Shown one piece after another: positions 2,057-23,770 of a stretch of DNA of 24,094 nt (position 1 is its first letter; every line of letters begins with the position of its first letter). The notes beneath the pieces are model-generated. The model was given only the letters and a program-made list of their open reading frames with translations, had not been told where the DNA came from and did no database searches. The stretch is taken from positions 1-24,094 of the IMG/VR virus record IMGVR_UViG_3300042945_003483. One strand, given 5' to 3'. A program made the translations under genes and the position numbers. The DNA comes from a virus.

Positions 2057-3985
2057 TTAGTAACCTTGAACTACATCTGGTTGTGCCTCTGTGAATGAAA
2101 CGAAGTATTGAAAAAGCTTTTGGCGTGCGTAGGTTTCCACTGAGTAGTTGGCATCCGTGATTGTGATAGCAACTGGTTGGGTTCTGCCAGGCAGGTAAGC
2201 GAATACACTCGGGGAAGCGAACATGCTTCTCAACCATTCAGATTGCTCTTCAGTAATCCAGTCTGTGGAAGCTGTCCAAGTGTTGGTTAGATCCACATTG
2301 AAAACTGTGGTGCCCCAACGAGAAGGGTTAACCTGTTGGATAGAAAAGGAAGGAGCCGACCAATAGCCAGGCACTCTGAACATCGTAGATCTCTGAGCAG
2401 TTTGGACATTGGTGTTGCGCTTCATAAACGTAAACCAATCGCGCCCGCCCAAGTTATTCATCCATGTGAAACGGATGGGTTGGAAACCCCAACAGTTATC
2501 ATCGTTGATTTCGAGACAGATGGTTTCTGAAATTGGATCGGGATCCACAGCACACTGGAACGGAAGCTGGGTCGTTTCGTATTTGTGAAGATCCAAACAG
2601 AACTTATCGAACGTTTCGTCAAAAGGACCAGTGACTGTGAAGAAGCTGTTAGGGGTAGCAAACGGTCCAATAGAAGAACAGGGTTCACTGGAATTCCCAA
2701 CATACATTCTTAGACCTATTCCATACATCTGAGCAGCCAGAGTGTAAGAAATAGAATACTCGTGATAACCCACGGGATTTTCGTTGATAGCAAATTGGTC
2801 CAGTTGAATCCAGTTTGCTCCATCATCGGTAGCTGGATCCGGACATCCCCAAAGATAGAGTTCGGGATAGTTGGTTCCCCATGTGTTCTGGGATGGGATA
2901 ACGAACTGGATTGTCGAACCAGTGGCCAGTATCATGTCCTGGAAAACTAAAGCAGAATCTCCGCCGACTGGAGGGGATTCTAAACAGTGGTCGTCGTTTA
3001 GGTATTGGTCATCATCATTAATCAGATTGATCACCGCCGCCGGACTTAGATTAGTGTCTATGTAGCCCGGGAAAATTTCTCCTACAGGTTCGTAAGTCGA
3101 TCCGGGAGTTCCCCAGTTGTTGAAGAGTTGGTCTTGGTCTCTGGTATAAGTGGCCGGGGGATCTGAAGGATTTATCTTAAACGAGTAAAGCCAATAGTTA
3201 TCCCCGGTTACCCCAGTGTAACTTGAGCACGTGTTCCACCCGGTTCCTCCGTTGGGAACAGTGAACAAGTAATCGTGATAACCTACCTCCACGTTGTTGT
3301 CGTAGAAAGTGGCTCTCATTGAATAGGGAACCTCGCCGTTGACCTCTTCAGTTTCGAAGTTCCAGTTTAACCAGGTTAGTGTGAAGTTTTCGTCTGATCT
3401 GATCGTTTGTGGTGAGTCTGGACAACGGGTAAGGAACTTGCCATCAACATCTGGGTTGGGCAGGTTCATCTCGTAAGCCAAGATAGCTTCTCCCGAAGTG
3501 GCGTAGTAGTTATAGCTTTCTTCAGCTCCCTGTCCGCTCGCCCAAGCAATGACTGGAGTGGTTGAGTTAGGAGCAGGTCTCCAATCTCCATCAGCGTACA
3601 AAGGAAAGTCAGGTTGACCAGTAGCGCCCATTCCATTATAGAGAACAGGTTCACCGTCAAGAGTCGTTGAGTATTCTTCTCCCACTTTAAGGTAGACAGT
3701 AGTTGCCAGACCTTCTCCGGAATAGAACGGTAGAGCAGAAAGGAACGGAACATTCTCCGCTATGTTTAGTTCTCCAGCTACCAATGAACTCACATCTATT
3801 AATCCCTTGCCCTCGGGATTGGGTGGCACTTTGAAACGGATGAATGTGGGTTGCTCGTAGATGTACACGTCAAACACGTATCTGAATTTGAACTGTGTGG
3901 TTTCATTTGAGTCCACCATCCAGATAATCGGGTTGTAGGCTGGAGACCAAACCGGTGGGGCTTTTAAGACATTTACTATGCTCAT
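2057..3985 (-). CDS. Tail structural protein (642 aa)
   Basis: This ATG-started frame lies between two tail-type genes, with one base separating it from each. The N-terminus (AYNPIIWMVDS near residue 16, then FRYVFDVYIYEQ, then a PPNPEGKGLIDVSS segment) matches a pattern I recognise from a tail-protein family common in Bacteroidota phages. The middle and C-terminal parts are beta-rich with many Trp, Tyr and Asn residues and no visible catalytic motif. A role in the distal tail or baseplate is inferred from context. Its partner is probably the next gene, which is coupled to it and also looks like a tail protein. The family resemblance is fairly firm, the exact function is not known. Confidence 0.75.
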   Translation of the reverse strand: MSIVNVLKAPPVWSPAYNPIIWMVDSNETTQFKFRYVFDVYIYEQPTFIRFKVPPNPEGKGLIDVSSLVAGELNIAENVPFLSALPFYSGEGLATTVYLKVGEEYSTTLDGEPVLYNGMGATGQPDFPLYADGDWRPAPNSTTPVIAWASGQGAEESYNYYATSGEAILAYEMNLPNPDVDGKFLTRCPDSPQTIRSDENFTLTWLNWNFETEEVNGEVPYSMRATFYDNNVEVGYHDYLFTVPNGGTGWNTCSSYTGVTGDNYWLYSFKINPSDPPATYTRDQDQLFNNWGTPGSTYEPVGEIFPGYIDTNLSPAAVINLINDDDQYLNDDHCLESPPVGGDSALVFQDMILATGSTIQFVIPSQNTWGTNYPELYLWGCPDPATDDGANWIQLDQFAINENPVGYHEYSISYTLAAQMYGIGLRMYVGNSSEPCSSIGPFATPNSFFTVTGPFDETFDKFCLDLHKYETTQLPFQCAVDPDPISETICLEINDDNCWGFQPIRFTWMNNLGGRDWFTFMKRNTNVQTAQRSTMFRVPGYWSAPSFSIQQVNPSRWGTTVFNVDLTNTWTASTDWITEEQSEWLRSMFASPSVFAYLPGRTQPVAITITDANYSVETYARQKLFQYFVSFTEAQPDVVQGY

Positions 3986-6962: not shown

Positions 6963-7239
6963 CAGCAACTGTGAAATTAAAGGTCACATTCGAGAACAGA
7001 TCTTTTCCATCTTGTCCGGTGACTTCGGTCCTATTTAGTTTAGGAACGAAGTATTCACTTATCTGGATTATGATGGCAAAGCGTTTCGCCGGATCGTCTA
7101 TCTGACTGAGCCAGACTTGGAAATCATCTATGTTGTTCTCGACAAAGGCCTGATAGGCCTCGCGAATCTCTTTGGTTGTTTTGTTCGGAGTGTTACCTCG
7201 GCCCTTGGGGTTAAAGTTATTTCCTGCTGGTGCTGCCAT
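6934..7239 (-). CDS. terS: Terminase small subunit-like protein
   Basis: A 101-residue protein from ATG 7239, immediately upstream of and overlapping the terminase large subunit. The N-terminus (NFNPKGRGNTPNKTTKEIREAY) is basic and followed by helical segments (AFVENNIDDFQVWL, DPAKRFAIIIQISEYFVPKL), then a short acidic tail. This helix-rich pattern is typical of small terminases in Bacteroidota phages, which recognise the packaging site and activate the large subunit. An obvious helix-turn-helix is not visible. The assignment therefore rests on size, composition and position. An A/T-rich 78-base gap precedes it and may hold its promoter. Confidence 0.75.
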   Translation of the reverse strand: MAAPAGNNFNPKGRGNTPNKTTKEIREAYQAFVENNIDDFQVWLSQIDDPAKRFAIIIQISEYFVPKLNRTEVTGQDGKDLFSNVTFNFTVADGDTDPEQL

Positions 7240-7317
7240 AAGATAAAGAAAGATTCTTTACCTTATATATGTAGATTGAGAAAAGTGACTAACTTTAGAC
7301 TGTTATTCTAAACGTTT
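7240..7317. promoter_or_regulatory. A/T-rich gap upstream of terS
   Basis: A 78-base gene-free stretch between the repeat-protein gene and terS. On the minus strand it contains CATATATAAGG about 30 bases before the terS ATG, which could serve as a -10-like element. No hairpin with a U-run was seen after the repeat-protein gene. No experimental-grade promoter call is possible. Confidence 0.25.
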
Positions 7318-8250
7318 TTATTTTTGTAGGGGAGGGTATTGGTTTTTTAAGTACAAATCAAAATTAATTGCACTTCCATTGATTCCTTTGTGAACCATTG
7401 TTATGTAACCTAAATCTCTGAAGTGGTACGAGAATTTAAGATTACTGGGAATTCCTACCTGCTTTGCCAATGAAATAAGTTCCTTCATCGAAAAAGGTTT
7501 TTGTGGTAAATGATCATAAAGTTTTTTCTCCCTTTCTTCTCTAATTGATTTGTATTTTTCGGCCATTGCCTTTCCACCTAAGGTAGCTCCGATTTTTTGA
7601 ATGTTATTCATGTGGCCATTTTCAGCGTTTATCTTACCTTGTTTAGGACCCACTATTTTGCCAGACATTGATGAATATTTTTTTTGTAACTCACTTCCAG
7701 GATAACCACTTTCAAACAGAGCCTTTTGCATATTTTTCATGTGGCCCTTTTCAGAATTAATTTTTCCTTGCTTAAGACCAATTTCTCTAAAAATTGTTTT
7801 GTTTTTTTCGGACTGTAAATAACCGCTTTCTAATAAAGCCACGACAGCCTTGCATCCGGGGGTTCCAAAAACATTTTTTTCTTTTTGCTCAAACCCTATT
7901 CTTCGTGCTTCATGTGTTAATAAAGGAAGGGTAGGAATTTTAGGTCCCACTAATTCTGTCCAAAATTTATTTCTCATTTTAGTTGCTTCGGAATCGTCAT
8001 AGATTCCTAAGATTTTGAAAGAATCAAAATCCCATTTAGTTCTTCTTAACTTTTTTCTGTCTAAGTCTATGAATAGCGTTCCACTAACAAACCAAGAATC
8101 TCCATTTAATTTTTTTGCCAAGAACAACATGACCTTCTTATCAGGAAATTTTTTGGCATTTGAGAAAGCTTCCGTCACTAAAGAATTGGGATTGGCCGCA
8201 ATCCATATAGCAGTAAGTGCACTAAGCTTTAGAAATTCCCTGCGTTCCAT
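7318..8250 (-). CDS. Homing-endonuclease-type repeat protein with Tat-like N-terminus
   Basis: A 310-residue protein from ATG 8250, overlapping the previous stop by one base. Residues 138-176 and 177-219 are two tandem copies of a unit beginning AL-ESGY and ending GKIN-E-GHMxNxQK. This GK-N-GHM pattern is found in NUMOD/HNH-associated repeats of phage homing endonucleases. No HNH, GIY-YIG or LAGLIDADG catalytic motif is evident, so an intact nuclease cannot be claimed. The C-terminal 70 residues resemble a small DNA-binding domain (KELISLAKQVGIP). The N-terminus reads RREFLKLSALTAIWIAA, strongly like a twin-arginine signal peptide, which is odd for a DNA-acting protein. The gene is visibly more A/T-rich than the terminase genes and sits between phage modules, suggesting insertion. 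Confidence 0.6.
   Translation of the reverse strand: MERREFLKLSALTAIWIAANPNSLVTEAFSNAKKFPDKKVMLFLAKKLNGDSWFVSGTLFIDLDRKKLRRTKWDFDSFKILGIYDDSEATKMRNKFWTELVGPKIPTLPLLTHEARRIGFEQKEKNVFGTPGCKAVVALLESGYLQSEKNKTIFREIGLKQGKINSEKGHMKNMQKALFESGYPGSELQKKYSSMSGKIVGPKQGKINAENGHMNNIQKIGATLGGKAMAEKYKSIREEREKKLYDHLPQKPFSMKELISLAKQVGIPSNLKFSYHFRDLGYITMVHKGINGSAINFDLYLKNQYPPLQK
7594..7839 (-). repeat. Two tandem copies of a ~40-residue unit
   Basis: Within the 310-residue protein, residues 138-176 (bases 7723-7839) and 177-219 (7594-7722) align over AL(L/F)ESGY and GKIN(S/A)E(K/N)GHM(K/N)N(M/I)QK. At DNA level the segments around 7608 and 7738 are also similar (CATGTGGCC shared). Confidence 0.7.
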
Positions 8251-8651
8251 TAGTGCTTTTCACGATAAGTTGCCCAAAGTCTTGTTACTCTCTCCAGCAT
8301 GATCTCATCCTCATCTGAAATTACCATTGATTTCAAGAAAGACAATTTGGATTCTATGAACGAGATATCTCCAGACAAATACCAATCCTTTTGGAAGTAG
8401 GCTTCGGTAGTGGAATACTCCTCGTCGAATTGATTGACCAGAGAAATAATTTTTTTGACATCTTTGGGGAAATCACCCGTCAGGGTAAATCGATCTACAG
8501 ATTTCCTGAACTTGGAATTGGTATCTAAAGTTTTTTTCTTAACGACAGTTTCCAATTGTTTACCAGCAGATCTACCTAATTGGAGACCGAAACCTCTAAT
8601 CAGATCGTTAGCTAATTTGCCCCCGACAGTTGATTTGTTTATTCTTGTCAT
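8250..8651 (-). CDS. Unknown phage protein (133 aa)
   Basis: I do not recognise this family with certainty. The protein starts at ATG 8651. Its N-terminal 45 residues are basic and helical (NKSTVGGKLANDLIRGFGLQ, then LGRSAGKQLE), and the C-terminal half is helical with mixed charge (SFIESKLSFLKSMVISDEDE). A glycine-rich amphipathic N-terminus of this type could associate with membrane or nucleic acid. There is no clear transmembrane span. Its stop overlaps the start of the repeat protein by one base (TAATG). The 57-base upstream gap contains a palindrome. No function is proposed. Confidence 0.6.
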   Translation of the reverse strand: MTRINKSTVGGKLANDLIRGFGLQLGRSAGKQLETVVKKKTLDTNSKFRKSVDRFTLTGDFPKDVKKIISLVNQFDEEYSTTEAYFQKDWYLSGDISFIESKLSFLKSMVISDEDEIMLERVTRLWATYREKH

Positions 8652-8676
8652 CTTTTTGTATTTTGATAGAGTAAAA

Positions 8677-8696
8677 GTAAGACTTACCCTCGAGGG
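8677..8696. promoter_or_regulatory. Adjacent palindromes GTAAGACTTAC and CCCTCGAGGG
   Basis: Bases 8687-8696 form the perfect palindrome CCCTCGAGGG, abutting an interrupted palindrome GTAAG-a-CTTAC at 8677-8687. They lie in the only gap of this gene block, 26-45 bases before ATG 8651. A possible operator, or part of a weak hairpin followed on the minus strand by a C/T-rich run; unproven. Confidence 0.25.
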
Positions 8697-8708
8697 GAAA
8701 AAATGAAA

Positions 8709-8876
8709 TCAGAACAATTTATTGCTTGCTTTGCCCAATTCTTTCCTGACCAAAGCTTTTTGATCCAATGGCAAACTCTTAACCCACCAATCCCTTTCTC
8801 TTGGCGATGGGAAGCTATTCCACACTTTCATCAAAGCTTGGGTCTTGTCTTCTTCTGTACCTTTGTATGATTTCAT
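8709..8876 (-). CDS. Small unknown protein (55 aa)
   Basis: A short open frame from ATG 8876 to a TGA ending at 8709 encodes 55 residues. It is soluble, basic and helical in look (EEDKTQALMKVWNSFPSPRE, then WWVKSLPLDQKALVRKEL). It fills an otherwise empty 180-base stretch between the DUF1376-like gene and the 133-residue gene, on the same strand, with an 11-base gap upstream. The sequence has sensible amino-acid composition with Trp and Lys and no low complexity, which supports a real gene. I do not recognise the family. Confidence 0.6.
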   Translation of the reverse strand: MKSYKGTEEDKTQALMKVWNSFPSPRERDWWVKSLPLDQKALVRKELGKASNKLF

Positions 8877-8887
8877 AAAGTTTGGGG

Positions 8888-9349
8888 TTAGGACTCGTAA
8901 AGGTCGTCTAAGCTCTGGAAAGTTCTCGCGTCTAAGACTTCTATAGGATTAATAAGTTCTTTATCTTTATCTTCATCTTTAACTCGCGTGCATTCATCCG
9001 GCATTTGATTTGGCATATGCGGTGGCATACTTTTGGCCCATCTTTTGTTTGCTCTTTCAGTTTGACGCAGCTTAAATACCTCTCTTTCCATCATTACCTC
9101 CCGCATTTTCTTGTTAAAATAGGTTCCGTCAATATCAACTTCGAATTTAAGTCGTACCACTTCTATATCCGAATCGATGCCACCGCATGCTTTTCGCATA
9201 ACTGCATCGGTGATTTTAATTCCTTGGTGTTGTAAAGTCATTAAATCTACAAAGCATCCTTTCTGGGCTTGTGTCATTGCGTATGTTCCCATCATCCAAT
9301 CTTCTGAGTAGAAAAGGAAACATGGATCTTTTTTCTTGTCTTTCTTCAT
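8888..9349 (-). CDS. DUF1376/YdaU-like replication-associated protein
   Basis: A 153-residue protein from ATG 9349, overlapping the winged-helix-like gene by four bases (ATGA). After a lysine-rich start, residues 8-40 read DPCFLFYSEDWMMGTY then MTQAQKGCFVDLMTLQHQ. This is the familiar N-terminal pattern of DUF1376/YdaU-like proteins, found next to replication initiators and helicase loaders in phages. A second helical stretch (FNKKMREVMMEREVFKLRQT) precedes a charged, probably disordered tail. It may act as a small replisome organiser together with the coupled upstream gene. A structural role is unlikely. Family level is fairly sure, activity is not. Confidence 0.65.
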   Translation of the reverse strand: MKKDKKKDPCFLFYSEDWMMGTYAMTQAQKGCFVDLMTLQHQGIKITDAVMRKACGGIDSDIEVVRLKFEVDIDGTYFNKKMREVMMEREVFKLRQTERANKRWAKSMPPHMPNQMPDECTRVKDEDKDKELINPIEVLDARTFQSLDDLYES

Positions 9350-9667: not shown

Positions 9668-10237
9668 CTACCAACGTCTTTTCTCTGATCCTTTGAGTCT
9701 TCTAACTTGACAAATCCAACCATCTCGGCTGGGCACGTCGGGTAAGCCTAAACGATAGGCCAACCAACCGTAAGACTTGCCCAATCTTTCCTCTACCTGT
9801 CTCTTGGATTCCAACCAAATGATCTCATCTGGATTGTGGATATTCCAAACTTTGTAGGTGTAAGCCTGGTCCTTTTTCACGTTGTAATCGTGATTGACCC
9901 ACTGCAGATTGCTCCAATGGTTGTTCGCTTTGTCGTTATCGATATGGTCAACCTCGGGAAAATCATGTGGGTTATCCACAAACATCGTCGCCACCAATCT
10001 GGCTATCCCCACGGTTTTTAGTCTGCATTTAGAGGGTTTACCTCCGGTAGCCAAATGAATAAACCAATAACCCGTTTTCGTTACTTTAGCGGCAAGGATG
10101 TGTCCATTGGGTTTGCGGGCAAAGCTTTTAACTCTGCCGTAGTTGGAAATCATGTACTTCTTTTCGTAACCCGGAATCCATTTGAAAATTTCCTGGTCTG
10201 AGTACTTCTGCATTAGTTGTGTGTAGTCTGCTAACAT
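9668..10237 (-). CDS. NUMOD4-HNH homing endonuclease
   Basis: A 189-residue protein from ATG 10237. Residues 17-42 (EIFKWIPGYEKKYMISNYGR then VKSF) are a clear NUMOD4 DNA-binding motif. Residues 78-115 give the HNH fold: ARLVATMFVDNP, then VDHIDNDKANN and NLQWV, with H98 and the Asn residues in place. The C-terminal part (ESKRQVEERLGKSYGWLAYR) resembles a NUMOD1-like helix-turn-helix. Such free-standing enzymes cut related phage genomes and spread their own gene. It is flanked upstream by a terminator and an A/T-rich box and stops 17 bases before the next gene, so it looks like an independently transcribed insert. Confidence 0.9.
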   Translation of the reverse strand: MLADYTQLMQKYSDQEIFKWIPGYEKKYMISNYGRVKSFARKPNGHILAAKVTKTGYWFIHLATGGKPSKCRLKTVGIARLVATMFVDNPHDFPEVDHIDNDKANNHWSNLQWVNHDYNVKKDQAYTYKVWNIHNPDEIIWLESKRQVEERLGKSYGWLAYRLGLPDVPSRDGWICQVRRLKGSEKRRW

Positions 10238-14109: not shown

Positions 14110-15285
14110 TTATTCTATTGCGTCTACAACTGCATCCCCAACCTGTTCTCCGTCTTCGTTAAAAAGTCTAAGTGGTTCAATGTAGAGTTCGTTATCTGGA
14201 TACCCGTAGTAGTTCATAAGCTTATCGAAAATCTTAAGCAAACATTTCTGAATAGGCTTAATTACTGTTTGGCTAAAGTGCTCTGACGCTACCAAGATTT
14301 CGTCTTTATTGTTGGATAATCCCGCACCACCAATATCTTTAATACCAAGCAAAAGAGGTGAAGTAATTCTGTGTCCGGTTAGAATTTGCTGAGCTATTCT
14401 TTGGGAAAGTTCAACATAATACGAATCGTTTGCGCTTTCAATCGGAGTGACTTCGGTGCCGTGTTCTTTGTCGTTAGCAAAACTTAAAAAGAATTTACCA
14501 GCTCCTTCCACTCCAGAAAATGAACTTGCCAGCTCGTCGTATATGTCCTGACGGGTCTCTGGGTCAGGGATGCCGTTATTCATGCTGATGAAAAGCGACG
14601 GAGCCAAACCATTCTGAAGATTGTACCAGTGGAACGAATCTACCATCACGTCTACGTTTGCCGCTGTCAAAGCACCGGAATAAGCTGGGATTGGATAGTA
14701 CTTGTTCCCAGGATTATAGTCAAAATAGTAAAGTATCTGGCGTGGATAAAGATCCGCTCTATTGGGATCGAAAGCTTTAATCGCTTTTGGTTTGTAAATG
14801 TCCTTTTTGTATTTGGTCCAGTCGGCAGAGTAGTAATACCATTCTACCCGATCGGTGTCTTTATCGAAATGTCCAGATCGAATATCGTTGAAATCCATGT
14901 TGTACATGTCCACGATATTGGTTCCAGTTTCGTCCCAGATAATCTGCAATGCAAATCCTCCGAAAGTTATGTAATCCAAAGTTACTCTGGAAAAAATGTC
15001 GTTCCAACCTTCCAGATCAGAATTTGCTCTTTTCAGAACATAATCGAAATTAGGATCTTTACATCTTAGTCCTTCACCAATTGTGTAAACCTGTTTCGAA
15101 ACGATGCAGGTTCTGTTCATGGAAGATCCGTTGTAGATAGGGGTGACGATGTTCTGTGGGTATAGATTGTCTACGCCGTAGTTGACCCAACTGTGTCCAC
15201 GAACCTCGAAGACCTTGGGTAGTGTGGGATCTGGAACTTCCTGAGAGAACTTCAAGATCGTCGAATTTGGCTTAGTCGTGCTCAT
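14110..15285 (-). CDS. Phage portal protein
   Basis: A 391-residue protein from ATG 15285. It has features of a portal protein: a wing-like N-terminal domain, a middle segment with FGGFALQIIWDETG (about residues 107-120), SFHWYNLQNG around 218, and a C-terminal helical stretch (AQQILTGHRITSPLLLGI, then FSQTVIKPIQKCLLKIFD). The length is near the short end of the family. It is the first gene of a leftward unit that also encodes the connector. A dodecamer in the capsid vertex is expected for the family, through which the terminase at 5700-6962 pumps DNA. A CATACTTAC box lies five bases upstream of its start. Confidence 0.85.
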   Translation of the reverse strand: MSTTKPNSTILKFSQEVPDPTLPKVFEVRGHSWVNYGVDNLYPQNIVTPIYNGSSMNRTCIVSKQVYTIGEGLRCKDPNFDYVLKRANSDLEGWNDIFSRVTLDYITFGGFALQIIWDETGTNIVDMYNMDFNDIRSGHFDKDTDRVEWYYYSADWTKYKKDIYKPKAIKAFDPNRADLYPRQILYYFDYNPGNKYYPIPAYSGALTAANVDVMVDSFHWYNLQNGLAPSLFISMNNGIPDPETRQDIYDELASSFSGVEGAGKFFLSFANDKEHGTEVTPIESANDSYYVELSQRIAQQILTGHRITSPLLLGIKDIGGAGLSNNKDEILVASEHFSQTVIKPIQKCLLKIFDKLMNYYGYPDNELYIEPLRLFNEDGEQVGDAVVDAIE

Positions 15286-15290
15286 TGTAA

Positions 15291-15299
15291 GTAAGTATG
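15291..15299 (-). promoter_or_regulatory. CATACTTAC box before portal gene
   Basis: CATACTTAC on the minus strand, five bases before ATG 15285. It also covers the first possible ATG (15297) of the plus-strand glycosyltransferase frame, so that upstream start is less likely. Confidence 0.45.
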
Positions 15300-15336
15300 A
15301 AAATTGTGGAAACTGGCAAAAGAAACCGTAGTATAG

Positions 15337-15349
15337 AAATGATATATAT
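15337..15349 (+). promoter_or_regulatory. AAATGATATATAT box before glycosyltransferase
   Basis: Identical in 13 bases to a box on the minus strand before the HNH gene at 9668-10237. It ends 19 bases upstream of ATG 15369 and is a candidate promoter core for the lone plus-strand gene. Confidence 0.4.
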
Positions 15350-15368
15350 TAAAACAGACAAAAATTAC

Positions 15369-16334
15369 ATGTATCAATCTTCTCTTGATCCCAAAACCCC
15401 AGGCACCTCAGGCATTGGTGCAGCTCCACTCCAGACAAACCTGCTCCTCCATATCAACGGAGGTCTTGGAAAATGCATCATGGCTACTGCAGTTATTCGT
15501 TCCTATAAGGCGGCGAATCCTCAGTCGAAAGTCGTGGTAGTTTCTGGTTATCCAGAAGTGTTTTTACACAATCCCGACATCTACAAAAACTTTCCCTTCA
15601 ATACTCCTTACTTATGGCAGGACTATTATGGTAAACCGGGCTGGAACGTGGAAGCTCAAGATCCTTATTTAAACGATGCTTGGATTAAAAACCGGAAACA
15701 ACACTTGATTGATATTTGGTGTGGGATGTTGAGAATTCCCAGTATACAAAAAACTCCGCTTCTCTATTTTTCGGGGCCGGAAGCTGACGAATTAAACTCC
15801 CAGATTAAAGTGGATAAACCATTGTTGGTGGTTCAATCAACAGGTGGTTCTAACCCCGGTGCCAGATCTTGGACACGTAATCCACCACAACACGAGTTTG
15901 AGGAATACTTGGCACAATTTAAGGACACACACTTTGTTCTGCATTTAGCCTTACCAGATACACCAGTTTTACAAAATGTGCATCAGCGTGTAGACAACTT
16001 CGATCGTAGAAAAGCAATGTGTCTAATGTATTATGCACAAGAGGTTTTGGGAATTGATTCTTATGCAATGCACGCCCGAGCAGCAAATCCAAATGCTGGT
16101 CCCTCTGTATTTTTCTTGCCATTAGCGGAGACAGAACAACGATTGGGCTACCAGAAAAAAACGATAAAATACTTGACCCCAAGACAAGAAATACAGGATC
16201 TATTGAAAGATCATCAGGATTATTTCGCCACAGTATTTAAACTTGGAATCGAGGATATCTCAGAAAATTGTCCTGTAGTTGCCGGAGAACGTTGGTTCGA
16301 TTTTAAAACCGCACCAATGCATGTTCAGGTTTAG
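15369..16334 (+). CDS. GT9/heptosyltransferase-like glycosyltransferase
   Basis: The only plus-strand gene. The frame is open from ATG 15297 (345 aa), and ATG 15339 is another option. I prefer 15369 (321 aa) because 15297 lies inside the portal box and an A/T-rich promoter-like box precedes 15369. The first Rossmann strand and loop read LLLHINGGLGKCIMATAVIR, the GT9 GDxLx-type nucleotide-sugar region. The C-terminal half has LLVVQSTGGSNPGARSWTR, LHLALPDTP, then DSYAMHARAA and VFFLPLA, the usual donor-site order of GT-B enzymes like ADP-heptose transferases. It would add a sugar to a lipid, glycan or protein. Its stop overlaps the convergent stop of the adhesin gene by three bases. The substrate is unknown. 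Confidence 0.75.
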   Translation: MYQSSLDPKTPGTSGIGAAPLQTNLLLHINGGLGKCIMATAVIRSYKAANPQSKVVVVSGYPEVFLHNPDIYKNFPFNTPYLWQDYYGKPGWNVEAQDPYLNDAWIKNRKQHLIDIWCGMLRIPSIQKTPLLYFSGPEADELNSQIKVDKPLLVVQSTGGSNPGARSWTRNPPQHEFEEYLAQFKDTHFVLHLALPDTPVLQNVHQRVDNFDRRKAMCLMYYAQEVLGIDSYAMHARAANPNAGPSVFFLPLAETEQRLGYQKKTIKYLTPRQEIQDLLKDHQDYFATVFKLGIEDISENCPVVAGERWFDFKTAPMHVQV

Positions 16335-17080
16335 AAGTATTGAATCACAGTAACAAAACCTGAAAGGCCGTTAGCTCCAGTAAAGGATCTATTGAAATCA
16401 AGAGAAGCGTTACCACCATTACCTCCTCTGCCCGCTGAAACTAAACAGATAGATTGTTGAGGCAAATCAAAAGTACAAATAGGAGAAGCTGAACCAGCAT
16501 TTGTAAATGTGCAGCTGACAGGTAGGACATTACAATATCTTGCTCCGCCACCACCGGCTCCACCCCTTGTTGAATCTAAAGTTGATGCATTTCCACCATC
16601 TCCCTGTGGACCGCATCCGTTCCCTCCCCGATTACCTACTTGACAATTTGCTAAACCTCCATCTCCCCAGTTGGCGTTACTACCTCCGCAAGCACCGTTT
16701 TGCCCAAATCTTCCCCCCTGGGCGCAGACTGTAGCAGTACCAGAAACGAAACAAGAGTTACCTCCGTGAGTAGCGGGATTACCCCGTGATCCTCCTAATC
16801 CTACTGTTACGGTTCCAGTAGAACATACAGCAGATCCTACAAAACAACAAACCGAAATACCTCCACCTCCTCCTCCACCTCCACCGGAAACGTTAAAAGT
16901 AGGTTGGCCAAGTGTGCAGACTTCTACTGAATCTCCTCCTCCCCCTCCACCTCCGATAGCCACTACCAAAATAGTTTTAGCTCCTGGGCAACAGTTCCAA
17001 GTCGCAGTCGAAGCGAAGTTGGTAACAACTGGCGGTGTAGCGCCACCACCAGCAAATCCTGAAGGTCCAAATAATCCCAT
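16331..17080 (-). CDS. Cysteine-rich polyglycine adhesin, copy 1
   Basis: A 249-residue protein from ATG 17080. A TTG at 17089 is in frame, but ATG leaves a one-base gap to the collagen-like gene. The start (TWNCCPGAKTILVVAIGGGG) matches the phage tail-fibre Gly-rich domain, in which a short strand precedes polyglycine stretches. Several poly-Gly runs follow (up to nine), resembling the stacked polyglycine helices of T-even gp38-type adhesins. The C-terminal strand SGFVTVIQYF matches copy 2 (VVKIIQYFS). Fifteen cysteines are present, several as CC pairs. It probably forms the receptor-binding tip of the partner collagen-like protein at 17082-18890. Confidence 0.7.
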   Translation of the reverse strand: MGLFGPSGFAGGGATPPVVTNFASTATWNCCPGAKTILVVAIGGGGGGGDSVEVCTLGQPTFNVSGGGGGGGGGISVCCFVGSAVCSTGTVTVGLGGSRGNPATHGGNSCFVSGTATVCAQGGRFGQNGACGGSNANWGDGGLANCQVGNRGGNGCGPQGDGGNASTLDSTRGGAGGGGARYCNVLPVSCTFTNAGSASPICTFDLPQQSICLVSAGRGGNGGNASLDFNRSFTGANGLSGFVTVIQYF

Positions 17081-17081
17081 A

Positions 17082-18890
17082 TTATGCAAAGTTAACTGCC
17101 CAACTTCCGTAGTAACTTGTTCCGTCGTAAAGCAGATTTACCAAATCTATTTTTCCTACTGTCGTAGACAATGTTGGAGGAATTGCGTTTGCCCATTTGA
17201 TAGTGGGCCACGTAACTGTGTAACTTCCAACACCACCTTGGGTAAGCAATAGACTATAGTTTGCTCCGGCAATTGGGTTTGAAAAGGTAAGAGTAGTTGA
17301 TCCAGTCAAAGTAAGATATTGATTATTACCTTCGTCGAAATCTACCGTGGCGGTTCCTGTCACCGACCCAATATCGAAAGACTTAGAAGCGCCCTGGCCA
17401 TAAGCAACTAAATTATCCACGTGAACAGTATCCGCTCTTTCTGAAGCCAATTGTACCCCAATAACTGTAGAATTAACGTGCGATGAACAAGAACAATATC
17501 CAATTACAGCGGCTTGTGCAGCCGAAGTTTGTGAGGATAATGAACCGATTACTATACCGTAATCTGCCAGCGAGCAATTCGAGCGACCGATAACAATAGA
17601 ACTGTTACATTCAGCAATAGTTTGGAAACCAATGGAAATACCAGTATTAGCAGAACAGGTTTGGGTTCCGATAGAAATAGAGGAATCTGATGAGCGGCTT
17701 ACTGTTCCTATCGAAATAGAAGAATAAGAACACACTCTGGCGTCATATCCGATTGCTACACTGCTGTTGAATCCGTCAACAGTCGAGCAGTTTTGGACTT
17801 CATAACCGATTGCAACTCCATAAGCTCCACTTGCAAGAGCATTGTAACCTAATACTACGTTTCCTGGTTGTGCCGAAGTAGCACCTACTGCTTCAGAATA
17901 GAGAGTGCTGGCACAAGTTACCAAAATAGGGCTCGGGGATCCTGATATACCAGAGGTGCCTGATGTTCCAGCAGCACCTGTTACTCCATTGAATCCAGAG
18001 GATCCTGAACTGCCTGAGGAACCAGAACTACCTGAGGATCCTGAAGAACCAGAACTGCCTGAGGATCCTGAAGAACCAGAACTTCCTGAAGAACCAGAAC
18101 TTCCTGATGATCCAGAACTACCAGATGTTCCGTCGACTCCAGATGTTCCATTAACTCCAGATGTTCCGTCGACTCCAGAAGTTCCCGAAGAACCGGTTTG
18201 ACCTGAACTACCAGAGGAACCAGAACTTCCGGATGAACCAGAAACACCAGAGGTTCCGTTAACACCTGAAGTTCCATTAACACCTGAGGTGCCATCCACA
18301 CCAGAGGTTCCATTAACACCTGAACTACCAGATGATCCTGAAATACCTGAAGTTCCTGAAACCCCTGAGGAGCCTGAACTACCTGAACTACCTGAACTAC
18401 CTGACAAACCTGAACTACCAGATGATCCTGAAATACCTGAAGTTCCTGAAACCCCTGAGGAGCCTGAAGAACCTGAGCTTCCTGAAGAACCTGAGCTTCC
18501 TGACGAACCAGAATTTCCTGAGCTGCCTGAAGTGCCGTTAACACCTGAACTTCCAGATGTTCCGTTTGCTCCTGAACTTCCTGAACTTCCGTTGACACCA
18601 GAGCTTCCAGAACTACCTGAGCTTCCTGACGAACCGTTGGCACCTGAACTTCCGCTTGTGCCTGCACTTCCGCTAACGCCAGAACTACCGGATGTTCCAG
18701 AGGTTCCTGCGATACCAGTTAATCCGGTAACTATACCAGTGAAATTTATAGTGGTGTCAGAAGCCTGGATTGGCAAGGGATTACCAAAACCATCTGTAAC
18801 AGTGGTTAAAGCCCCCGTAAGACCAGCGCCTCCTATATTAAGGACTCCTCCGTATGAAGAGCATATTGTAGATCCGGTTAAATTACTCAT
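17082..18890 (-). CDS. Collagen-like YadA-type beta-roll fibre protein, copy 1
   Basis: A 602-residue protein from ATG 18890. After about 57 N-terminal residues come some 260 residues of collagen-like Gly-X-Y triplets, mostly GSS and GTS with GVN and GVD. Next are about 150 residues of YadA-head-type repeats (SVAIGYDARVC, SISIGTQTC, SIVIGRSNC), with a cysteine in most turns. The last 100 residues (VDFDEGNNQYLTLTGSTTLT, then a C-terminal beta domain) match the other copy. A trimeric stalk with a beta-roll head is the expected architecture for fibres with such repeats. Proline is absent from the triplets, so Ser/Thr hydroxyls might be glycosylated. A CATACTTAC box precedes it. Confidence 0.8.
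   Translation of the reverse strand: MSNLTGSTICSSYGGVLNIGGAGLTGALTTVTDGFGNPLPIQASDTTINFTGIVTGLTGIAGTSGTSGSSGVSGSAGTSGSSGANGSSGSSGSSGSSGVNGSSGSSGANGTSGSSGVNGTSGSSGNSGSSGSSGSSGSSGSSGSSGVSGTSGISGSSGSSGLSGSSGSSGSSGSSGVSGTSGISGSSGSSGVNGTSGVDGTSGVNGTSGVNGTSGVSGSSGSSGSSGSSGQTGSSGTSGVDGTSGVNGTSGVDGTSGSSGSSGSSGSSGSSGSSGSSGSSGSSGSSGSSGSSGSSGSSGFNGVTGAAGTSGTSGISGSPSPILVTCASTLYSEAVGATSAQPGNVVLGYNALASGAYGVAIGYEVQNCSTVDGFNSSVAIGYDARVCSYSSISIGTVSRSSDSSISIGTQTCSANTGISIGFQTIAECNSSIVIGRSNCSLADYGIVIGSLSSQTSAAQAAVIGYCSCSSHVNSTVIGVQLASERADTVHVDNLVAYGQGASKSFDIGSVTGTATVDFDEGNNQYLTLTGSTTLTFSNPIAGANYSLLLTQGGVGSYTVTWPTIKWANAIPPTLSTTVGKIDLVNLLYDGTSYYGSWAVNFA
18318..18468 (-). repeat. Exact 61-bp direct repeat, 90-bp period
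   Basis: Bases 18318-18378 and 18408-18468 are identical in 61 positions and offset by 90 bp, equal to ten Gly-X-Y triplets, so frame is kept. This is a clear recent tandem duplication within the collagen-like region. Confidence 0.9.
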
Positions 18891-18929: not shown

Positions 18930-19805
18930 TTAGGAGAAGTATTGAATTATCTTAACCACGCCTTGGAATCCATTTCCGCCTTTACCAGCAGTTACTGAAT
19001 TACCAGCGTGTCCACCGCCACCTCCTGCACCATAGCAAGTTCCGTTTCCTCCGGCGGCATTTTCAGTTGACCCGCCGCAACCGGATGCTCCAAGACAAAC
19101 CCCACAGCATGTGGTTCCTGTTCTTACGGTTCCACCCAGACCTGCAGCGCAACATGATTGTCCGCCACCCCCAGCACCGCCTCTTGGTCGGAAATTTGCT
19201 GTTACGTCGGTAGGACTTCCCCCAACCAACAGAGCTTGTGATATACCTGATTGCTCACCCATACCTCCACCATTACCACCAGAACAAGCCGTTCCTGTTC
19301 CAGTATTGATGACTGCAGTTCCACCACCACCTGGGCAGTTATTAACCCCGCCGACTGCTGCTCTATTATAGCCCCCGCCATTCACGTTTCCTGAATTACA
19401 GGCAGACCCTCCGTTTGCCACCACACAAGCACCAAAACAAGATGCTCCTCCGTTTGTGCCCACATAACCACCATTACAGTTAATAGCATTTGCCTGACCT
19501 CCTTGACCAGCAGATCCTACTATTACACAAGCTGATGACGGAACTTGACCTGCTGAAAGTGTTGCTAAGGCTATACCCCCTCCACCTCCTCCTGCACCGC
19601 CGATGTTAATAAAGGTAGACGATACGGCCACCCTGGAATCTACTCCGCCAGAATTACCTCCCCCACCAGCTCCTACAACCAACACTTGGATACAGGTTGT
19701 ACCAGGGCAACATGACCATGTCCCGTTGGCAGTAAACAGTTGTTCAACTGGTGAGGGTGGAGGACTTATTCCAGATCCTAAAAAGGTAAAAGGTGAGGTA
19801 AACAT
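18930..19805 (-). CDS. Cysteine-rich polyglycine adhesin, copy 2
   Basis: A 291-residue protein from ATG 19805, overlapping the collagen-like stop by one base (TAATG). It starts with a Pro-rich linker (ISPPPSPVEQ), then FTANGTWSCCPGTTCIQVLV, the phage Gly-rich fibre-domain start, and many poly-Gly runs. The C-terminus (GVVKIIQYFS) matches copy 1. Seventeen cysteines are visible, including CC pairs and a dense block near residues 224-240. The polyglycine-sandwich architecture suggests the host-binding tip. It is coupled to the collagen-like protein at 19805-21457. Confidence 0.7.
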   Translation of the reverse strand: MFTSPFTFLGSGISPPPSPVEQLFTANGTWSCCPGTTCIQVLVVGAGGGGNSGGVDSRVAVSSTFINIGGAGGGGGGIALATLSAGQVPSSACVIVGSAGQGGQANAINCNGGYVGTNGGASCFGACVVANGGSACNSGNVNGGGYNRAAVGGVNNCPGGGGTAVINTGTGTACSGGNGGGMGEQSGISQALLVGGSPTDVTANFRPRGGAGGGGQSCCAAGLGGTVRTGTTCCGVCLGASGCGGSTENAAGGNGTCYGAGGGGGHAGNSVTAGKGGNGFQGVVKIIQYFS

Positions 19806-21457
19806 TAAGCGAAGTTCTTATTGATGTTAGCGTAGTATCCTGTAACCCCAGCTATGTAAACCATGCTGATTGCATCGACTGCTCCAATTGCTGTGGAAAG
19901 TGCAGGGGCAGTAGCACCAGCCCAATCTACATCTGCTCCCCAAGCCACTGTGTTACTACCAGCACCACCTTGTTTGAGGAATAAAGTATAAACTCCACCA
20001 TCGATAGGATTAGATTTAGTCAGAGAAGTGATGGAAGATGTAAGGGTTAAAGTCTGAACATTTCCATTATCGAAATTGACAGTGACAGTTCCCCCGGTAT
20101 TTCCAATCGTGTGTGTCTTGGAAGCTGCTTGACCGTAAGTAATCAGATTATCTACGTGAACTGTGTTAGTTTTTTCTGAAGTTAAACCGGGACCAATAAC
20201 TGTAGCTCCAGTGTGGGTTACACAAGCATTACATCCCATTGCAATCGAACATGCTACTGTTGCTCGTGAGGTATTGCCTATTGCTATTCCATGAACTGCA
20301 CAAGATTGTGCTTGAAAACCCAGAACTATAGATCTTTCCCCGAATGATTTTGAATTATATCCTATAACCACTGATCCCGAGTTGGCAGCACACGATTGCA
20401 ATCCCATTACAATCGATCCATCTGTTGCACAGCCTTGGAAACCTATAAAAGTTCCTGCGCTACTCGCACAAGAATCTCCTCCAATTATAAGAGGATTATA
20501 ACCAGAACCACAAAGGTTTCTTCCAATTAATATCCCAAAATTCCCACCATCAACAAGAGCACAGTTTCTTGCATTATCCCCGATGGCAACTCCATATCTT
20601 CCTGTTACACAAGAGTTCAATCCAAGAACAACGTTATTGATACCATCTGATTTTGCAGCATTACCAATCACCACCGAACTGTTAGCTCCAGCAAGAGTGC
20701 AAGCAGATACTCCTAACACTACAGCAGTGTTAGCGTTATTCGCTGAAGCTCCGACTCCATCAGAGACCAAAGTGTTAGTATTAACTTCTGCGATAGGGGA
20801 AGGGGTTCCCGAAATTCCAGAGGTGCCAGAAGTTCCAGCTGCACCTGGTGCACCAGCGGATCCAGTGGCTCCATTAATTCCAGAGGTTCCGGAAGTTCCG
20901 GAAGTTCCGTCTACACCTGATGTGCCTGAGGAACCAGAACTGCCTGATGAACCAGAACTGCCTGATGAACCAGAACTGCCTGATGTGCCATCGGCTCCTG
21001 AGGTTCCAGAAGATCCATTGGCTCCTGATGTCCCAGAAGTTCCGTCTACACCTGATGTGCCTGAGGAACCAGAACTGCCTGATGTTCCATCCGCTCCTGA
21101 GGTTCCAGAAGATCCGTTGGCACCTGATGTTCCACTTGTTCCGTCCACTCCAGAGGTTCCTGAAGAACCACTGTTACCTGAAGTCCCGGATGAACCAGAA
21201 ACTCCAGAGGTGCCTGCGCTTCCACTTGTCCCGTTAACTCCAGAAGTTCCATTAATTCCAGAGGTGCCTGAGGTTCCGTTAGATCCTGAGATTAGTGCAG
21301 AGTTACCGTTAGAATCTATCAGATAAACTTTGTCACCAGATCCCGAAGTAGATCCATACATGGCTACGTAGCCAGCTGGTGGGGTTTCAGGGGAATTAGT
21401 GAGAGAGAAATTTATCTGACCTCCCGTTGTTCCTACAATGTATTTTGCGTTGCTCAT
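19805..21457 (-). CDS. Collagen-like YadA-type beta-roll fibre protein, copy 2
   Basis: A 550-residue protein. ATG 21457 is chosen over an in-frame codon at 21487 that would overlap the previous gene. Residues 1-57 are a beta-rich N-terminal domain, 58-217 are Gly-X-Y triplets (GTS, GSS, GVD, GAD), and 243-430 are YadA-type repeats ([19 protein letters not shown] and similar). The head carries eleven cysteines at recurring positions. The last 110 residues form a beta domain shared with copy 1. The two copies differ in stalk length. The protein likely forms a trimeric virion fibre whose tip is the Gly-rich protein encoded directly downstream. Confidence 0.8.
20901..21084 (-). repeat. Exact 49-bp direct repeat, 135-bp period
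   Basis: Bases 20901-20949 recur at 21036-21084. The offset of 135 bp equals fifteen Gly-X-Y triplets. Following segments near 20988 and 21088 are also close matches, consistent with stalk expansion by duplication. Confidence 0.85.
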
Positions 21458-21471
21458 TTTATCATTTTGTT

Positions 21472-22143
21472 TTAGCAGTAGCCCCAAGGCGCTGCCGTTT
21501 GTGTTAGGGTGAATCCATTATCGATCGCCAAACTTGCCCCGTTTTCTATAAGTATAGTCTGACAGTATGTCACCGTGTTCTGCTCTACAACATAATCTGT
21601 CCCGGCTGGTATAGTGCACGGAAACTGGTAGAGTGGAGTATTGGTCACATAGACAATAGCATCCAAAATTTCATTGCCCCCAGTGTAAGGAACGAACTCG
21701 ATTTCACGCTCACACGGAACGTCAGAGTAAAGGAATGCCTGACCTCTGTCGATTTGCTGGAATTCAATTTCACAAACGTTCCAAACTGTCAGAGCAAAAT
21801 TCCAGAAATCCTCATCGGTTGACCAGACCGAACATGAAAGTGGGCTCTCAAATGTGATGGTTGGTGCGTTGGTGTTGAACACCATGTAATCGAAGTTGCC
21901 TTCGGGGTAAAGGTAAATGTCTCCCTGAATTGGGTTGTTAAGTCCATCCACACCCACAAGATTGACTTCCAGTTCTACGAATCTGGTGTTTCTACGAACC
22001 ACATTAGCCGCTACAGAAAAGGTCTGTTTAGAATATGAGTTCGTGAAAACGATGGTGAAGAAATTCCCTATTGCCTGACCAGCAGAAACTGTGTCTGCGT
22101 AAATAATCAGATTGTTAGTGGAATTCGGTGTGAGATTTAACAT
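21472..22143 (-). CDS. Virion-associated protein, fibre-gene neighbour (223 aa)
   Basis: A 223-residue protein. ATG 22143 is preferred over an upstream in-frame start at 22179, because the CATACTTAC box (22151-22159) would otherwise lie inside the gene. The N-terminus (MLNLTPNSTNNLIIYADTVS) followed by alternating strands matches my memory of a small beta-rich protein encoded before fibre genes in Bacteroidota phages. It may form the base to which the collagen-like fibres attach. No enzymatic motif or signal is visible. The C-terminal portion (TYCQTILIENGASLAI) is also beta-rich. Confidence 0.6.
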   Translation of the reverse strand: MLNLTPNSTNNLIIYADTVSAGQAIGNFFTIVFTNSYSKQTFSVAANVVRRNTRFVELEVNLVGVDGLNNPIQGDIYLYPEGNFDYMVFNTNAPTITFESPLSCSVWSTDEDFWNFALTVWNVCEIEFQQIDRGQAFLYSDVPCEREIEFVPYTGGNEILDAIVYVTNTPLYQFPCTIPAGTDYVVEQNTVTYCQTILIENGASLAIDNGFTLTQTAAPWGYC

Positions 22144-22825: not shown

Positions 22826-23770
22826 TTAGATAGTCGATACGAACTGAGAAGCATAGACCGCCGTACCCAGACGGAACTTCGACATAAAGTTAACCACGTC
22901 TTGTGAAGGATCGTAGTAGAATCTGAAGTTGTCGGCATCGTCGAGTAAGCCAGTTCCGAAGAACGCGTACTTCTTAGGACCAACGATGATGTGAGTGTTG
23001 GTGTTCAAGCCAGGAGCACCGAAGATGGTCATGTTAGTACCGGGCCATACGAATGCGTTTGGAGCGTCTCCAGAAGCGTTAGAGATGTTAGGGTACTGAA
23101 GGATCAAGCTATTTCCTTTAGCCATCAAAGCCTGAACTGCGATAGCGTAGTTTGTCATAGACATGTACATAACCAAGTCATTCTCTTGCTTAAGAGCGTT
23201 GGTCAATTTGCCGTAAATGTTCCAGATGGTGTCGAATGCGGTGTTAACTGCCAAAGGTACAGTGATACCAGCACCGGTTCCACCGATACATCCGTTAGCT
23301 ACAGTTGCTTGAGAAAGCAATCCGTCGAGGCTGCCGCCATCGCCCTGCCAGATGGTATTTTCTACGTACTGGGCGATATTGTTTACCTTGTTGTTTGCGA
23401 TCTGTTGCTCGAAAGGAACCGACTCGGCGTATGCGCTCGGGCTCAATTGAGAAGACAACCAGAAGTTTCTAAGATCTTCTGGGCAAAGTTGTTCTTTCAA
23501 CATCTTTGATTGTACGATTAAGTCGAGCTGAGAGTAAACGGTAGAGTTACCGGTTGCTCCGCCGGGTCCGACTTGAGCTGCACCGAATCCGCAAGTTGCG
23601 TCGATGATGTAAGGATTAGAATTTAGCAAGTTGATAGCAGAAGTTCCTGCTGTCTTGCCGGCCATAACGGTCAAGTATTGTACGGTGAAAGGCTTTAATA
23701 AGGCCTCAGAAATTAATTCCGTACTGAGCTGGTCCGTATACGGCGATAGTGATGATAAATCGAAACTCAT
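22826..23770 (-). CDS. Major capsid protein (HK97-fold expected)
   Basis: A 314-residue protein from ATG 23770, 12 bases after the scaffold-like gene. The N-terminus (DLSSLSPYTDQLSTELISEA) and segments such as AGKTAGTSAINLL, CPEDLRNFWLSSQLSP and SMTNYAIAVQALMAKGN resemble major capsid proteins I know from Bacteroidota phages. The C-terminus (DNFRFYYDPSQDVVNFMSKF) is typical of this group, ending in a beta strand. Length agrees with a lean HK97-like capsid subunit. The upstream coiled-coil gene and the hairpin just downstream support high-level, separately tuned expression. No protease motif is present. Confidence 0.85.
   Translation of the reverse strand: MSFDLSSLSPYTDQLSTELISEALLKPFTVQYLTVMAGKTAGTSAINLLNSNPYIIDATCGFGAAQVGPGGATGNSTVYSQLDLIVQSKMLKEQLCPEDLRNFWLSSQLSPSAYAESVPFEQQIANNKVNNIAQYVENTIWQGDGGSLDGLLSQATVANGCIGGTGAGITVPLAVNTAFDTIWNIYGKLTNALKQENDLVMYMSMTNYAIAVQALMAKGNSLILQYPNISNASGDAPNAFVWPGTNMTIFGAPGLNTNTHIIVGPKKYAFFGTGLLDDADNFRFYYDPSQDVVNFMSKFRLGTAVYASQFVSTI

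Follow-up and report, generated by a model that had tools for sequence, protein, structure and literature searches.

Most GT9 enzymes act on the LPS core, and in the heptosyltransferase WaaC the Asp of the 'GD' motif is regarded as the catalytic base. The BAHT enzymes TibC and Aah assemble as dodecamers and have Ser/Thr heptosylation activity. To our knowledge, adhesin heptosylation is known for bacterial autotransporters only, and glycosylated phage virions are known from few cases. TibC and Aah heptosylate Ser/Thr residues of autotransporter adhesins, with recognition by shape and not by a sequon (PMC4358343, PMC8151025), so protein modification, which the initial annotation of the locus described here had considered a new use for a GT9 enzyme, has a precedent. 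A four-Cys iron-binding motif has been described for BAHT enzymes (PMC4358343), and the mycobacteriophage glycosyltransferases of Che8 (gp110), Corndog (gp38), and Myrna were proposed to modify a structural protein of their own phage (PMC12363180). The fold, adhesin heptosylation, and phage virion glycosylation are each already known; what is new here is that they come together with a YadA-like phage fiber, with sulfation genes, and with a GT9 active site that has changed. No description of a glycosyltransferase paired with a beta-roll fiber was found in the literature searched.

Here we examine a glycosyltransferase gene (GT; 15369-16334, plus strand, 321 aa) in a stretch of 24,094 nucleotides of viral DNA (IMG/VR record IMGVR_UViG_3300042945_003483, positions 1-24,094), the whole of which is referred to as the window. 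The host of the virus is probably a member of the Bacteroidota.

A lone plus-strand gene encodes a predicted GT9-superfamily glycosyltransferase

As first noted, GT stands alone on its strand between the fiber genes and the portal gene: it is the sole plus-strand gene of the window with homologue support, and the remaining homologue-backed genes all lie on the minus strand. The portal gene (14110-15285, minus strand; PHROG E=1e-35) is divergent from GT, while the 3' end of GT overlaps tail-to-tail by 4 bp with the gene at 16331-17089. The reading frame is open across the full length of 15297-16334 on the plus strand (345 aa for the longest ORF), with the ATG at 15369 internal to it. We consider 15369 a plausible start because it lies 84 bp past the portal start, compared to 75-82 bp in relatives. 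Homology to relatives starts only at about residue 24 of this form of the protein, and residues 1-20 of its AF2 model have a pLDDT of ~50. Among relatives, dN/dS for GT is 0.06-0.16 (pairs with unsaturated synonymous sites), and the position and orientation of the gene are conserved; GT is therefore under purifying selection and is not a chance ORF.

The divergent stretch between portal and GT (15286-15368) contains blocks kept across relatives, including ATAAGTAT near the portal start, GACA, and ATATAT, with TATAAT or ATATAT placed ~15-25 bp ahead of the GT start in the window and in relatives. It is probably a two-way control region with promoters for both portal and GT; sigma-70 and terminator scans around GT gave signals not clearly above those of shuffles.

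Elsewhere in the window, G+C falls to ~0.36-0.38 within 7001-9000, over ORFs 7318-8250 and 8250-8651, and this segment is possibly a recent insertion. A 310-aa protein encoded there has no Pfam match and contains internal repeats such as GLKQGKINSEKGHMKNMQ / GPKQGKINAENGHMNNIQ. A NUMOD4-HNH homing-endonuclease-like gene is present at 9668-10237, and relatives have HNH-like ORFs at several places, one of them beside GT in L006 (2689-3222).

Single-sequence searches with the GT protein returned no Pfam, NCBIfam, PHROG, or PDB match, and searching PDB sequences with a profile yielded nothing useful. PF01075 was absent from the window GT at E<=1, as it was from the L040 and L018 phage records. We modeled GT with AF2 (alignment A1, 28 relatives; pLDDT 84, pTM 0.84) and compared the model to the PDB using Foldseek, the kind of structure-based search for the nearest GT9 that the initial annotation had suggested. 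The top match was E. coli heptosyltransferase II WaaF (1psw, 1.5e-11), followed by a Veillonella GT9 protein (3tov, 2.3e-9) and WaaC (2h1h, 3.5e-9); TibC was matched as well (4rap/4rb4, 6.0e-7, rmsd 3.9 Å over 259 columns). Using hhalign, the GT profile aligned to Bacteroidota GT9 with 96% probability (E=2e-9), pairing GDVILAT of GT9 with GKCIMAT of the phage enzymes in the N-lobe and D-S-xx-H with D-S-xx-H in the C-lobe. By model and profile, the window protein is thus a predicted GT-B glycosyltransferase of the GT9/heptosyltransferase superfamily, as originally proposed, a likeness apparent by structure and profile-profile alignment but not by single-sequence search.

In the phage family, the GT9 'GD' motif has Lys35 in place of its Asp, and this Lys is invariant in 28 aligned sequences. 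Since the Asp is regarded as catalytic, the chemistry of the phage enzymes may differ in detail from that of GT9. In the alignment of GT relatives, C36 and C118 are the only nearly invariant Cys residues, so the conserved four-Cys iron site is absent from the phage GTs.

GT is linked to fiber genes across two phage clades

A scan of IMG/VR identified ~44 viral loci with GT relatives. The close clade has 12 representatives including the window (56-100% identity), and the distant clade (31-37% identity) is found in larger phages, on contigs that reach 140 kb. In the tree, each phage clade forms one group, with chromosomal homologues adjoining the distant clade; neighborhood similarity inside each phage clade is partly a matter of shared ancestry. 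At all close loci, GT lies on the strand opposite the structural genes and is convergent with the fiber genes, an arrangement kept in L006, L013, and L014 despite a different gene order around the portal. A beta-roll fiber gene lies upstream of GT on the same strand in at least 15/19 distant loci, and in large phages GT sits within the fiber operon in that orientation. The link of GT to fiber genes that the initial annotation had pointed out is therefore stable across relatives.

Lysogeny, expected of a phage with a lysogenic-conversion or moron gene, was set aside: the recombinase profile used, PF00589 (tyrosine integrase), had no match in eight GT-positive relatives of 19.6-32 kb, records that may be incomplete. 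The most divergent phage relative comes from a Kyanoviridae single-cell genome (L142, MH319754.1; GT 26% identical), where GT is flanked by genes for a sulfotransferase and a carbamoyltransferase-like protein, a 2OG-Fe(II) oxygenase is encoded nearby, and the fiber paired with GT is of the LamG type without a beta-roll. In L014, an ORF just upstream of GT and overlapping it (2769-3635) has no Pfam match and a DTD motif that resembles GT-A glycosyltransferases.

A predicted beta-roll fiber is the common neighbor of GT

Four host-contact proteins with Gly/Ser/Thr stalks had been proposed in the window; collagen-like stalks are present in two of these four fiber-type proteins, the other two being Gly_rich_2 domains. 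Of the latter, one is a minor-tail-like protein (PF21722; 16331-17089, minus strand) convergent with GT, and the second, also assigned by Pfam, is encoded at 18930-19805 (minus strand). Fiber protein 1 (17082-18890, minus strand) comprises an N-terminal domain, a collagen-like Gly-X-Y stalk (17934-18725; 84% G+S+T), and a YadA/BoaA/UspA1-like beta-roll head with a C-terminal beta domain (17085-17933), our proposed acceptor region. This C-terminal part was modeled by AF2 with a pLDDT of 87, and its best PDB matches using Foldseek were the YadA-like heads of BpaC, BoaA, UspA1, CbpF, and YadA. Fiber protein 2 (19805-21487, minus strand) has a collagen-like stalk at 20801-21292 (80% G+S+T) and a beta-roll head at 19808-20800. 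Both collagen-like fiber proteins of the window are thus predicted to carry a YadA-like terminal head.

Beta-roll repeats were counted with Gly-X-Y runs masked, and a count of at least 4 was taken as a pass. On the Gly-X-Y side, collagen-like stretches were present in 10/12 close loci versus 3/19 distant loci, and Pfam Collagen matched 17/19 of the fiber proteins from close loci, 1/19 of those from distant loci, and 10/16 of those from GT-negative relatives. Even among close loci, L006 has no collagen-like stretch beside GT, and L013 has only a very short one. GT-negative relatives were found using as an anchor the probable major capsid protein (22826-23770, minus strand), which was assigned by position and size and has a PHROG match of unknown function; GT was absent from them on whole-record search. 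Six of these relatives (L083, L087, L088, L098, L112, and L114), which share capsid or portal genes and have a complete fiber-to-portal interval, encode long collagen-like fibers with GSS/GTS stalks. We therefore rejected the collagen stalk as the constant partner, as it is rare in distant loci and kept in GT-negative relatives. The expectation that GT would be conserved beside collagen-like genes likewise failed, given distant relatives with no collagen neighbors.

The same six capsid-sharing relatives exchange fiber-tip proteins beside the portal (LamG-like, LRR, Gly-rich, and carbohydrate-binding module types), which reveals a modular host-recognition cassette. A Gly-rich tip was also rejected as the constant partner because tip types beside GT vary (Gly-rich, LamG-like, and others).

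The beta-roll count was passed at 10/12 close loci and 15/19 distant loci. At the two remaining close loci, the repeat was either seen on reading (L037, where it is plain) or formed a weaker chain (L014). Distant fiber proteins match Pfam LbR_Ice_bind, UspA1_rep, and YadA_head. By these sequence measures, the neighbor common to both phage clades is a YadA/UspA1-like beta-roll fiber. Beta-rolls also occur without GT in L098, L114, and weakly in L112; the head does not require GT, and a rule of 'beta-roll if and only if GT' was rejected. The association between beta-roll and GT gave a Fisher p of 0.02 at best, with two loci judged by reading and sequences that are non-independent.

Chromosomal copies and neighboring sugar and sulfation genes

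Strong GT matches were found in 1/395 Bacteroidota genomes (G001) and in 12/296 genomes of the family to which G001 belongs. At 10/13 chromosomal loci, a beta-roll gene adjoins GT or lies within ~2 kb of it. Several of these loci are flanked by housekeeping genes and so do not resemble prophages. That GT is paired in this way outside phages argues more strongly than anything else for a beta-roll protein, rather than a host glycan, as the acceptor. A secreted NHL-repeat protein is usually encoded alongside, with Por_Secre_tail in L190, and a sulfotransferase is present in five loci; some have an FkbM-type methyltransferase, and in L192 there are genes for APS kinase and for CysN-like and CysD-like proteins. 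The beta-roll protein of the chromosomal module (L169, L170, L189-L199) has no obvious signal peptide. Two of the GT homologues (L170:11295-12932 and L189:9559-11178) have a C-terminal extension of ~220 aa, and L189 has two tandem GT copies.

In the distant phage clade, GT is followed by a sulfotransferase gene in 26/27 assessable loci and by an APS kinase gene in 23/27. Both come directly after GT in L015-L043, for example at L018:11784-13027 and L040:10879-14426. L040 adds HldE-kinase-like, HldE-adenylyltransferase-like, and HldD-like genes (TIGR02198/02199/02197), whose best NCBIfam matches, below the equivalog cut-offs, suggest functions like those of heptose-7-phosphate kinase, heptose-1-phosphate adenylyltransferase, and ADP-heptose epimerase; it also has a cupin gene. 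Such ADP-heptose-pathway-like genes were found in this one relative and not in the window. HldE-kinase homologues are present in 17/18 host-family genomes, both GT-bearing and GT-lacking. Other loci carry GT4-type or GT-A-like genes.

Proposed function and alternatives

Our preferred reading, held with modest confidence, is that GT is a protein glycosyltransferase dedicated to one target, the beta-roll head on the virion's own fiber. For the acceptor, donor, linkage, timing, and purpose of the reaction, we infer the following course. GT would act in the cytoplasm, before virion assembly, using a donor that is probably of the ADP-heptose type and taken from the host, and would O-glycosylate Ser/Thr residues in the YadA-like beta-roll heads of the neighboring fiber proteins, much as TibC and Aah modify the surface loops that repeat along autotransporter adhesins. 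In the large-phage relatives, the sugar would probably then be sulfated by the neighboring sulfotransferase. Glycosylation of the fiber may serve stability, shielding, or tuned adhesion.

More tentatively, phages and Bacteroidota could have in common an undescribed cassette whose GT9-type enzyme, its active site altered, O-glycosylates YadA-like beta-roll fibers, many of them then sulfated by a dedicated sulfotransferase. If so, virion fibers would be sulfoglycoproteins made by the phage's own enzymes. A recurring cassette of fiber and GT9, with or without the sulfotransferase, would link virion glycosylation to adhesin heptosylation, and would account for some of the glycan genes that lie unannotated close to fiber genes in environmental phages.

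The main rival is that GT alters a glycan on the host surface (LPS/LOS or capsule), either to block superinfection or to keep released virions from sticking to debris, with receptor-binding and receptor-masking genes inherited together. The LPS-core activity of most GT9 enzymes fits this idea, as does the fact that in the window's group GT stands alone on the opposite strand behind an upstream region of its own, like many moron genes, and adjoins freely swapping receptor-binding modules. However, large phages have GT inside the fiber operon, the eight GT-positive relatives searched have no PF00589 integrase, and the beta-roll pairing recurs in chromosomes, a setting in which superinfection control does not matter. 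We consider host-surface modification unlikely, though still the strongest competitor.

That GT glycosylates the collagen-like Gly-Ser-Thr stalk, the target first suggested, is less probable again. The stalks are rich in Gly, Ser, and Thr and adjoin GT in 10/12 close loci, but 16/19 distant loci have no collagen, L006 and L013 depart from the pattern within the close clade, and complete GT-negative relatives keep long GSS/GTS stalks. Least probable is that GT is a degenerate, non-catalytic GT9 homologue (a fiber chaperone, for instance, in keeping with the Asp-to-Lys change and its location just downstream of fiber genes, as fiber chaperones are) or else acts on a different acceptor, for example the Gly-rich tip proteins, given strong purifying selection, many invariant pocket-type residues, adjacent sulfotransferase, APS kinase, and once ADP-heptose synthesis genes that imply real sugar chemistry, and the variety of tips beside GT.

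Comparison with known systems

Like the gtr-type phage glycosyltransferases that modify O-antigen or LPS, GT is phage-borne and near virion genes, and it shares with some of them the state of a lone gene; it differs in the eight relatives without a PF00589 match and in the fiber-operon location of the large-phage GTs. The mycobacteriophage glycosyltransferases are likened to GT by role alone, and their targets are capsid and tail-tube proteins. WaaC and WaaF have the GT-B fold and are among the best structural matches to GT, with which they have in common an N-lobe G-[DK]-x-[IV]-[LM]-[AT]-T motif and a C-lobe D-[ST]-xx-H-xx-[AS]A motif. In contrast to them, the phage GT has no PF01075 match, has an invariant Lys in place of the GD Asp, and is encoded among fiber rather than LPS genes. 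The catalytic domain of the BAHT enzymes TibC and Aah superposes on the GT model, and in both systems the enzyme is encoded beside a repetitive beta-structured adhesin. The phage GTs differ from BAHT enzymes in their length of ~290-320 aa and in having no conserved four-Cys iron site. The partners differ as well, with a predicted YadA-like trimeric beta-roll head for the phage GT and a monomeric beta-helix passenger for BAHT.
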